Shown: piece by piece, positions 10,333-18,093 of the stretch
How positions within the stretch are numbered: the stretch's first letter is position 1
Layout of the letters: each line of letters opens with the position of its first letter
DNA from: Flexibacter flexilis DSM 6793
GTDB taxonomy: Bacteria > Bacteroidota > Bacteroidia > Cytophagales > Flexibacteraceae
Assembly (NCBI RefSeq): GCF_900112255.1
Contig: NZ_FOLE01000001.1
Span: 186,001-250,000 of the forward strand
Length of the DNA stretch: 64,000 nucleotides
Direction of reading: 5' to 3'
Translations under genes and position numbers: made by a program
The notes under the pieces: model-generated
Database searches by the model: none
What the model saw: the letters and a program-made list of their open reading frames with translations, nothing else
What the model was told of the DNA's origin: nothing

Positions 10333-10364
10333 AAAAAGGCCATTGCAAACGCAATGGCCTTTTA
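10333..10364 (-). terminator. Terminator of the DUF3137 gene
   Basis: Arms AAAAAGGCCATTGC and GCAATGGCCTTTT flank a 4-base loop. Read on the minus strand, the hairpin is followed by a T run, placing the 3' end of the DUF3137 transcript before ung. Confidence 0.85.
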
Positions 10365-10387
10365 TAAAACTTTATGTTACAGATACT

Positions 10388-11332
10388 TTACTGATTAATG
10401 ACTTCAAATTCTTTGTGCGCAGCGAAATGTTCGATAACGCTAATCGGGAAATATAAATCGTTGAAATGCACCCGAATGGAGTCAAAGTTCAAGCTGGTAG
10501 TCATTACGTTTGGTTCAAACAAATCTTTGTCGTGGGCGATGGCCACATACATTTTGTTGTAAACAAACGAAATATATACGTCGTTGTGAAGCTGATTTTT
10601 GAAAGCTACTATTTTGCTCACAAACTCTTCATTAAACATTTGTTGCGCCTCTACCAATTGTTTGTCGGACAAAACACGTACCTGAAAATACGAGTTAAAT
10701 TGTTCGTTGTTCAACTTTAGCACCTGTCCAACGACATCGCCTTTGGCTTTATTCGGCTCTATTACCACGTCAGCAGGAAACGGCTTGGGTGACTCGGCAA
10801 CAAAAAAGATACCTCTAAACTGGTATTTTGCTCCGAATTTCGCTCGATCATCTTTGCTCTTAAATTTGGCTTTCAGCTCCGAAAACTCAATTTTTACATT
10901 GTCCACCGTTCCCGAAACATGGTCGTCGCCGTCCATGAAAATCGGTGTTTTTTGGAAAAAGCCACTATTAAAATATTCTCGCTGGGAGATAAAATGCTTT
11001 TTGTCGTAGTGTAACGTCGGGTTGATGAAGTGAATTAGTTTGTTGATTACGTGCAACTTAAACTCTTCATAATAACTCGTATTTTTGATAAGCGACTCAA
11101 ACATCATATAAAATCCGACAGCGGCCAATGCAAACACTGGGATAAAATATAGAATATAAATCGGCTCGGCGTGCGTTACGATAAAATACGCTGCCGATGG
11201 AAAAAATACACCCAAAGCCGCGACCAACAAGCCCATTTTTACCAAAATGGATTTGCGGCTCTTTTCTATATTATGCAATTCGGGAACCAGTTCCTTATCA
11301 TAGAAACTTTTGAGATTATGCAGCTTGTTCAT
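10388..11332 (-). CDS. DUF3137 domain membrane protein
   Basis: 314 residues. A charged N-terminal helix is followed by two adjacent TM segments (about 33-53 and 58-78, IYILYFIPVFALAAVGFYMM) and then a long soluble domain. This soluble domain contains FFQKTPIFMDGDDHVSGTVDNV and RGIFFVAE, where I recognise the DUF3137 pattern (galanin-like in some databases). The topology suggests an inner-membrane protein with a cytoplasmic C-terminal domain. No enzyme motif is visible and the function is unknown. It stands alone between a terminator and a roughly 290-base AT-rich gap. Confidence 0.75.
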   Translation of the reverse strand: MNKLHNLKSFYDKELVPELHNIEKSRKSILVKMGLLVAALGVFFPSAAYFIVTHAEPIYILYFIPVFALAAVGFYMMFESLIKNTSYYEEFKLHVINKLIHFINPTLHYDKKHFISQREYFNSGFFQKTPIFMDGDDHVSGTVDNVKIEFSELKAKFKSKDDRAKFGAKYQFRGIFFVAESPKPFPADVVIEPNKAKGDVVGQVLKLNNEQFNSYFQVRVLSDKQLVEAQQMFNEEFVSKIVAFKNQLHNDVYISFVYNKMYVAIAHDKDLFEPNVMTTSLNFDSIRVHFNDLYFPISVIEHFAAHKEFEVINQ

Positions 11333-16203: not shown

Positions 16204-18093
16204 ATGAAATCTTATATCTGTTACTGTTTTTACTTTTTAAGTATCCTTTTTCTGCCTGACAGAACTTTTGCACAAAATGCAGTAAATCTGCCACTTACTA
16301 ACGAAAAACAACATTATTTCACACACAAAGAAATAGAGGTTTTGGAGGATAGCTCACAGGGAGAAAAACTAACATTGGCGCAAGTGCAACAACTTTCCGC
16401 ACAGTTCCGCCCCACTGATACGCAAAGCCCCAAAAGCATTAATCCTAATGTCTATTATTGGTACAAAATCAAGATTCACCATCCCGCGCATATGCTTTCC
16501 GAAACGTGGCTACTGGAGTTTTTCGACCAAACCATTGACCACATCGAAGCCTACGTACCACTGGTAAACGGCAATTACAACCATATAGTAATGGGTGATA
16601 ACCAGCCTTTTAGCCAAAGACTTTACCAACACAAAAACTTTGAAATACGTCTTTCTGACCAGTTGCGCGGCGACCAGATTTATTATTTTCGCATCAAATC
16701 GCATCAGGTGGCCGATGTAATTATTGCGCTACGCTCCTTTAGTTGGTTTGTCAATTATGCCTTAGACGAATATTTCGTTTTCGGCATTTTCTATGGCATG
16801 ATTTCCGTGTTCAGCCTCTACAATTTCATTATGTTTATGGTAATGCGCCAACGCCAATACCTGTACTATGTTTTGTATATTTTGAGTGTTGGATTGTATC
16901 AAATGTGCACCGACGGCATTGCCTACCAATTTCTTTGGCCTAATGCCATGAACTGGAATCAATACGCTTACGGTATTCCGCTCTACGGCGTGAGTATTTT
17001 CGCGCTACTGTTCACACTGGAACTGCTGCACGTACGCGCCAAATCCAAGAATATTTACCTTTTTATTTGGGGAATTATCGCGCTGAGAACCGTTTTTTTT
17101 GTGTTGTGCTTGTTCAATCCGCTTTGGTTTGGATTCAAATTCATTGAATTTATTCCGCTATTGGCCAGCTTCGGGACGGGTTTGTATTTGCTTTGGCAAG
17201 GTTATTCGCCTGCTACTTTTTTCGTAGGCGGCTATTCATTTTTGCTTTTCGGCTTCATTATCAAACTTTTAATCGCGATTTATCCTGACAGATTGCCATT
17301 TGGTGCGGTCACGCATTACAGCCTAAGTTTTTGTTTTGTGGCCGAAATGGTGCTGCTTTCATTTGCCATCGGCGACAAGGTGAGCATTCTCAAACGCAAA
17401 AAAGAAAAAGCCCAACAGCGGATCATTAAGCAACTGACCATCAACGAAAAACTCAAAGACCAACTCAACAACGAACTGGAGCAACAAGTAAAAGCACGAA
17501 CCAAAGAGCTTTGGGAAAAAACAGAAATCATTGAAAATCAAAATCTTGCGCTTCTGGATGCCAACAAGCAACTGCAAGAGCAAGCCGAAGAAATCGCACG
17601 CATTAACGAGCTACTCCAGCAAGACAACAAAGCCTTGCTTTCGGACGTACAAAACGAAAAGCAAGCACGTGTACTTTCAAAAATTCCTGATTTCGAGGAA
17701 TTTAGCCGTATTTACCCCGACAACGAAACTTGTTTTCAGTTTTTGGAACAGCTCAAATGGAAAAACGGTTATCGCTGTCTAAAATGCGGACATGGACATC
17801 ATTTTCAAGGGCACGCGCCGCACAGCAGGCGTTGCGCCAAATGCGATTACGAAGAGTCCGTAACCATTAGTACCATTTTCCAAAACGCCCGTATTCCGCT
17901 AAACAAAGCCTTTTACATTACGTTTTTGGTGTACTCGACAAAAGGCCAAATTTCATCGCACAAGCTCTCGGAGCTGATTGGCATACGCCAAAGTACGTGT
18001 TGGTCGTATAGCTCGCGTATCAAGAAAATAATGCAGGAATCGGGCAAAAAACGCCACAACGACGAAGGTTGGGTATCGCTGATTTTTGAGTAA
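16204..18093 (+). CDS. 7TMR-DISM membrane sensor fused to IS1595-type transposase zinc-ribbon/HTH domain
   Basis: 629 residues from ATG 16204. In order: signal peptide (about 1-23); 7TMR-DISMED2-like extracytoplasmic domain (about 30-170, with VYYWYKIKI and WLLEFFDQTIDHIEAYVP); 7TMR-DISM seven-helix membrane domain (about 180-385); coiled coil (about 390-500); then a C-terminal domain (about 505-629). That domain has Cys525-x2-Cys528 and Cys544-x2-Cys547, ESVTISTIFQNARIPL, and a helix-turn-helix-like KLSELIGIRQSTCWSY. This matches the N-terminal DNA-binding part of IS1595/ISXO2 transposases; the DDE catalytic part is absent. DISM sensors normally carry kinase, cyclase or LytTR outputs. A membrane-bound, ligand-controlled DNA-binding regulator is inferred. 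A TTG start 63 bases earlier would mask the signal peptide. It appears monocistronic. Confidence 0.85.
   Translation: MKSYICYCFYFLSILFLPDRTFAQNAVNLPLTNEKQHYFTHKEIEVLEDSSQGEKLTLAQVQQLSAQFRPTDTQSPKSINPNVYYWYKIKIHHPAHMLSETWLLEFFDQTIDHIEAYVPLVNGNYNHIVMGDNQPFSQRLYQHKNFEIRLSDQLRGDQIYYFRIKSHQVADVIIALRSFSWFVNYALDEYFVFGIFYGMISVFSLYNFIMFMVMRQRQYLYYVLYILSVGLYQMCTDGIAYQFLWPNAMNWNQYAYGIPLYGVSIFALLFTLELLHVRAKSKNIYLFIWGIIALRTVFFVLCLFNPLWFGFKFIEFIPLLASFGTGLYLLWQGYSPATFFVGGYSFLLFGFIIKLLIAIYPDRLPFGAVTHYSLSFCFVAEMVLLSFAIGDKVSILKRKKEKAQQRIIKQLTINEKLKDQLNNELEQQVKARTKELWEKTEIIENQNLALLDANKQLQEQAEEIARINELLQQDNKALLSDVQNEKQARVLSKIPDFEEFSRIYPDNETCFQFLEQLKWKNGYRCLKCGHGHHFQGHAPHSRRCAKCDYEESVTISTIFQNARIPLNKAFYITFLVYSTKGQISSHKLSELIGIRQSTCWSYSSRIKKIMQESGKKRHNDEGWVSLIFE

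Follow-up and report, generated by a model that had tools for sequence, protein, structure and literature searches.

A gene of Flexibacter flexilis DSM 6793 that joins a membrane receptor to part of a transposase raises the question of what such a protein may do in the cell, and on which DNA it might act. The gene, with all its features on the forward strand, lies at positions 16204–18093 of a 64,000-nucleotide stretch of contig NZ_FOLE01000001.1, the whole of which is referred to here as the window. An earlier note, made from the sequence alone, had described one uninterrupted gene for a seven-helix 7TMR-DISM sensor that ends in the zinc ribbon and helix-turn-helix (HTH) of an IS1595-type transposase and lacks the DDE nuclease, and this description stands in all its parts. 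A single unbroken frame of 629 codons plus stop encodes a protein of 629 aa composed of DISMED2 domain, seven-helix membrane domain, long helix and IS1595-type zinc ribbon/HTH; its start was set at the ATG at 16204, ahead of a signal-peptide-like stretch, whereas the mechanically called reading frame opens earlier, at a TTG. The signal-peptide-like N-terminus (residues 1–23, 16204–16272) was recognised by eye and contains a helix at residues 2–15 in the structural model. It is followed by a 7TMR-DISMED2 periplasmic sensor domain (residues 42–176, 16327–16731; Pfam PF07696, 84.4 bits against a cut-off of 22, E 9e-24) and a 7TMR-DISM_7TM membrane domain (residues 189–392, 16768–17379; PF07695, 135.3 bits against a curated cut-off of 29, E 3.4e-39). 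The zinc ribbon (residues 505–549, 17716–17850) scores above the cut-off of Zn_ribbon_IS1595 (PF12760, 28.3 against 25.4 bits, E 1.8e-6), a family with one occurrence in this genome, and would bind zinc through the predicted ligands C525, C528, C544 and C547. Residues 562–616 (17887–18051) correspond to the HTH region of IS1595 transposases, as indicated by a partial match to NCBIfam NF033547 (E 7e-6; 26.1 bits, under the full-length cut-off of 75). No match to a DDE nuclease was found by Pfam at E 1, and the protein stops where the first DDE strand would begin.

A structure prediction, which the earlier note had suggested, gave a full-length AlphaFold model with a pLDDT of 84.5 from 43 aligned fusions as input. 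In this model, the last membrane helix is prolonged into a long helix in the cytoplasm (residues 368–492, 17305–17679), with one helix extending over residues 368–461 and low confidence at residues 460–487; this region is a probable coiled coil, through which the protein may form dimers. The C-terminal domain is confidently modelled within the full-length protein, and when modelled alone reaches a pLDDT of 90.5, with helices in the HTH region. Compared with the structures in PDB, the full model agreed best with the RetS sensor domain 3jyb (TM 0.71 by target). A fold search with the DNA-binding domain alone returned no solved structure at E 0.001, and the domain profile gave a single match among PDB sequences, at E 0.15.

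The earlier note had cautioned that the fusion might be an isolated artefact with a broken frame, which is ruled out by the recurrence of the architecture in several Bacteroidota lineages, including species of several genera. Nearly all of the 57 loci recovered in a related-locus search have the same layout, at about 640 aa, the exceptions being L058 and L076 (cut by contig ends) and L083 (short). With further searches of relatives and removal of duplicates, a listing of relatives, also proposed in that note, came to 79 non-redundant fusions with ORFs no shorter than 450 aa, among them the window's own and L016, itself cut by a contig end. Among the loci examined, the DISM part accompanies the DNA-binding domain wherever the ORF reaches 450 aa, and no ORF that has the domain and lacks DISM reaches 350 aa. 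All 43 aligned fusions have cysteines 525, 528, 544 and 547 and also agree in parts of the HTH. Two fusion genes lie in tandem in L034 (4489–8409) and in L052 (3197–7113). Short ORFs of 151–203 aa with zinc ribbon/HTH and no DISM part were seen in L160 (1197–1649, genome G214), L159, L164, L166 and L167, and the IS1595 zinc ribbon is matched in part by frames in genomes G113, G117, G131 and G232, with lengths of 823–841 aa and, in G232, 640 aa.

The derivation of the C-terminal domain is apparent from the proteins to which it is closest. A profile of this domain built from relatives (25 rows) matches transposase-sized ORFs of 300–345 aa, with E values down to 4e-46. At 1e-5, it matches at least 56 of 395 genomes of the phylum, at least 11 of which have a frame of 620–718 aa (the window's own and other fusions) and the rest shorter, mostly transposase-sized frames, both counts being lower bounds because scoring took only the best candidates per genome. 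In a tree of 79 rows and 136 columns, with the fusions thinned to 37, the subgroup that contains the fusions (support 100/100) also includes 13 rows of transposase size and 3 short ones; branch order is rough since the alignment is short. Within this subgroup, a clade supported at 86/92 comprises the 37 fusion rows together with L130 (a stand-alone short ORF), L058 (a contig-edge fragment) and L083 (an ORF of 295 aa). Because these three rows fall among the fusions, four changes are needed for the fusion state as labelled; as the clade nevertheless holds all fusions, a single origin appears likely, though not firmly established. Separately, genome G216 contains at least 10 diverged IS1595-type ORFs of 306–339 aa (L148–L157). 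The five of them that were aligned have lost two of the aspartates that are catalytic in such transposases, and a 25-bp inverted repeat was found at the ends of L150, with nothing convincing at the ends of most copies. Perhaps these ORFs represent a second domesticated family, close to the domain of the fusion.

Clues to the function of the fusions come from their gene neighbourhoods. A SusC gene is located within 6 kb of 50 of the 67 fusions found in stretches of at least 11 kb, compared with 0 of 21 DISM proteins lacking the IS1595 domain (Fisher 3e-10, a value that overstates the case because many of the loci are from related species, chiefly Pedobacter, and the counts are not independent). 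Outside the named species, the proportion is 11 of 19 fusions against 0 of the 21 controls. The gene cluster found immediately downstream in most loci encodes a TonB-dependent SusC-type receptor and the second cluster SusD, each neighbour cluster having been identified by one representative. Other recurring neighbours are glycoside hydrolases of families GH30, GH3, GH5 and GH2, polysaccharide lyases of chondroitinase-B and alginate-lyase types, and a weak GH88-like gene whose score is below the cut-off. In Pedobacter, an Ada/AraC-type gene and a gene for a TPR histidine kinase also recur near the fusion, in 7 loci each. The Sphingobacterium loci L069, L075 and L078–L080, for which the stretch covered ends short of the SusC promoter, have SusC and SusD upstream of the fusion and GH2 downstream. 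In nine fusion loci (L178–L183, L185–L187), from genomes several of which carry many copies, SusC is absent from the 6 kb on either side of the fusion, as far as the stretch extends. No SusC adjoins the window gene. Its neighbours encode a subtilase, a cobalamin adenosyltransferase, a DCC1-like protein and two proteins (245 and 237 aa) that match no Pfam family.

A candidate operator emerged on reading the DNA between fusion and SusC, where AAGCGTATCA was seen to be repeated. A pair was defined as two direct AAGCGTATCA sites 74–96 bp apart, with at most 2 mismatches each and at most 3 in total, and with G at −7 of at least one of the two sites. In the window protein, the recognition-helix signature is GIRQSTCW (residues 593–600, 17980–18003), and the occurrence of pairs was compared between loci according to this helix. 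Loci of IRQSTCW fusions have 46 pairs in 41 of 57 loci (686 kb), a few of which count twice via overlapping pairings; pairs were found in 1 of 18 loci with other helices (298 kb), in 1 of 20 control loci (370 kb), and not at all in three Markov-resampled sets. For some of the 16 IRQSTCW loci that have no pair, the reason is that the stretch covered does not include the SusC promoter. Counted by promoter, with the count confined to SusC frames whose first Met is preceded by 350 bp or more, a pair precedes 36 of 49 SusC frames near IRQSTCW fusions and 0 of 9 near fusions with other helices; without L069, L079 and L080, where the stretch begins inside the SusC frame and which are therefore no true promoter tests, the former figure is 36 of 46. 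Where SusC is at most 1 kb from the fusion, the contrast is 35 of 38 against 0 of 6 (Fisher 1e-5, subject to the same non-independence). These counts were mostly made in the loci in which the motif was discovered, but seven loci were held out, from 7 of 9 genomes (the two remaining genomes were G304, which the set included before, and G512, whose frame is transposase-sized). A pair was found in 6 of these 7, before SusC in L254–L257 and before other genes in L253 and L258, and none in L259. The IRQSTCW class of recognition helix tracks with the AAGCGTATCA pair, to which, judging from this association, it may bind.

The spacing of the pairs ranges overall from 76 to 93 bp, and they lie mostly before SusC; of 48 tabulated operators, 23 have a spacing of 79 bp and 22 one of 88–93 bp, with 76, 78 and 82 bp seen once each. 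Around the site nearer the gene, the consensus is ttGnGanTnAAGCGTATcA, after which comes another conserved block, TaatTaTcAgttatTTA. Of 61 matches to TAnnTTTD, a −7-like element, on the downstream side of this site, 38 fall at offsets 80–82 or 92–93 bp, counted from where the site starts; 36 of 48 operators have the element at one of these distances. The pair faces the gene that follows it. This is usually SusC, a divergent one in L050; in L046 and L052 the pair faces GH5-cluster genes, in L071, L076, L077 and L082 the cluster for a PKD protein, and in L085 the weak GH88-like gene. Among 147 genomes of the family of G304, the exact pair has 10 matches, 1 of them beside a fusion, with 8 fusions present there. 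A search for operators of other helix classes gave no shared tandem motif, only LacI-like palindromes and other conserved blocks. A fusion with an MRQNTCW helix in L184 has one AAGCGTATCA site, inverted, before SusC (10334–10646). The ends of the nearest plasmid-borne insertion sequence, a distant relative present in four copies in Persicobacter, read GAGGTCGGTAGGTAA and on, unlike the operator.

The genome of the window has two SusD-type genes, and one of them belongs to a SusC-SusD-GH3-GH30 operon (L238, contig C1, at about 728.5–736.9 kb) located about 525 kb from the window gene. Upstream of this SusC lies a pair with a spacing of 93 and 3 mismatches in total, which just reaches the threshold, while the other SusC of the genome (L239) has no pair. 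The pattern GCGTATN{19,27}TATCAGT has a single match in the 4.25-Mb genome, at C1:737033–737068, just upstream of the same SusC, and the pattern AAGCGTATN{23}TATCAGT occurs in 2 of 395 genomes, once at the L238 site and once in G235. Exact AAGCGTATCA sites number 26 in this genome, against 3 for a reversed control, but all 26 are within stop-to-stop frames of at least 100 codons (25 in frames over 100), so that single sites say little. A pattern with GCGTATYA twice has two matches in the genome, neither with an exact AAGCGTATCA, and misses the L238 pair because the L238 sites depart from it. With a composite site before the SusC of L238 and none before that of L239, the regulator seems to act at a distance of about 525 kb, and the unlinked L238 operon is the predicted target of the window protein. 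Genes for GH3 and GH30 also occur in fusion loci of other genomes, and we take the combination of GH30 and GH3 to suggest beta-glucans as substrates. As L050, L046, L052 and L238 illustrate, the site goes with the target gene and not with the fusion.

The explanation that we favour, and consider quite probable on these sequence comparisons, is that the fusion is a membrane-anchored one-component activator of SusC/SusD operons for glycan utilisation, with a domesticated IS1595 DNA-binding domain. The same sites might instead serve to repress SusC/SusD until a ligand is present, and sequence alone does not tell activation from repression; yet the −7-like element is found 80–93 bp downstream of the sites, its two distances from them differing by about one turn of the helix, and such promoter spacing is usual for activators, which makes repression unlikely. 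Some promoters also contain a palindrome of the CAAACGTTTG or CAATCGATT type between fusion and SusC (L043, L051, L053, L171–L173, L175–L177), which we take to be LacI/PurR-like. Being present upstream of SusC near both helix classes, for IRQSTCW fusions in 13 of 49 regions and for fusions with other helices in 5 of 9, it probably marks the action of another regulator. It is very improbable that the fusion binds this palindrome rather than the tandem sites, since the palindrome is missing from 36 of the 49 regions and does not separate the helix classes, as the tandem pair does.

Such a further regulator at the promoters is also what would be expected if the IS1595 end were a protein-protein module without DNA binding and the AAGCGTATCA pair were bound by a regulator travelling with the fusion, for which the Ada/AraC-type gene and the TPR histidine kinase of the Pedobacter loci would be candidates. 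However, one or the other occurs in 14 of the 39 pair-bearing loci tabulated for neighbours and neither in 25, within the limited stretches covered; moreover, the pair tracks with the helix class of the fusion itself, and the 43 aligned fusions show no variation in the zinc ligands or in parts of the HTH. We regard this alternative as improbable, slightly more so than repression. A chance insertion of an IS fragment in a sensor gene, leaving a functionless relic, would agree with the true IS1595 ancestry of the C-terminal part, but is hardly conceivable given an architecture repeated in 79 non-redundant ORFs, metal ligands that are the same in all 43 aligned fusions, and the grouping of the fusions in the tree.

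For the activator, the following course of events can be proposed. The periplasmic DISMED2 domain would sense an extracellular molecule, probably an oligosaccharide; from there, by way of the seven membrane helices and the uninterrupted long helix of the structural model, the signal would reach the cytoplasmic DNA-binding domain. This domain, whose homology with IS1595-type transposases is evident, would derive from their end-binding part and grip the two direct AAGCGTATCA repeats, associated with SusC at spacings of 76–93 bp, and the bound fusion would help RNA polymerase to start at the −7-like element, mostly 80–82 or 92–93 bp away. The comparison across genomes suggests that the fusion turns on genes for the uptake of sugar polymers directly, via two DNA sites. 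The earlier proposal of a membrane-bound, DNA-binding regulator is supported by the profiles, the tree, the neighbourhood and the candidate operator, with DNA binding and control by a ligand as inferences. More tentatively, and with somewhat less than even confidence, the fusions may form a class of regulators of glycan utilisation spread over several families of Bacteroidota, in which the end-binding domain of a transposase on a seven-helix receptor would bind two sites like paired element ends; as such binding would be akin to the pairing of two ends by a transposase, the SusC operon would be tied to the membrane while it is switched on.

With 7TMR-DISM/DISMED2 receptors of the RetS/LadS type, the window protein shares the periplasmic DISMED2 and the seven-helix domain, but their output is a kinase, cyclase or phosphatase in place of a zinc ribbon/HTH. 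With IS1595/ISXO2 transposases (PF12760, NF033547), it has the zinc ribbon and HTH in common, but it is without the DDE nuclease and fused to a receptor. Known regulators of polysaccharide utilization loci (PUL) in Bacteroidota include hybrid two-component systems (HTCS), SusR, and ECF/anti-sigma pairs. Like them, the fusion family places a sensor-regulator gene beside SusC/SusD and glycoside hydrolases; unlike them, the fusion is a single polypeptide whose DNA-binding part would stay membrane-bound. No match to a histidine kinase, receiver or sigma factor was found in the window protein by Pfam at E 1, and thus not the kinase and receiver in one protein that characterize an HTCS. Sensor, membrane helices and predicted DNA-binding domain in one chain correspond to the layout of a membrane-bound one-component system, which the earlier note had suggested would be of a new kind. 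This view can be kept only in part, since a published account (PMC8092284) describes, in proteobacteria, 7TMR-DISM proteins that end in a ChiS-family DNA-binding domain, a cryptic HTH variant, and a DISM receptor with a DNA-binding end therefore has a precedent. The shared features are the DISM sensor and a C-terminal DNA-binding domain in one chain, and the present family differs in its IS1595 zinc ribbon, its SusC/SusD context and its occurrence in Bacteroidota. No paper on the DISM-IS1595 architecture or its link to SusC/SusD was found in a literature search that most subscription papers lay outside; within the literature searched, the use of an IS1595 domain as DISM output and its tie to SusC/SusD operons appear to be new.

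Bacteroidota digest much of the polysaccharide of guts, soils and seas, and to our knowledge the switching-on of individual SusC/SusD operons is understood for only a few types of regulator. The family described here would add another type, with a concrete candidate operator, and would be a clear case of the DNA-binding domain of a bacterial transposase turned into the output of a receptor. The proposal is directly testable through the spacing of the two sites, the pairing of helix class and operator, and the unlinked target in the genome of the window.
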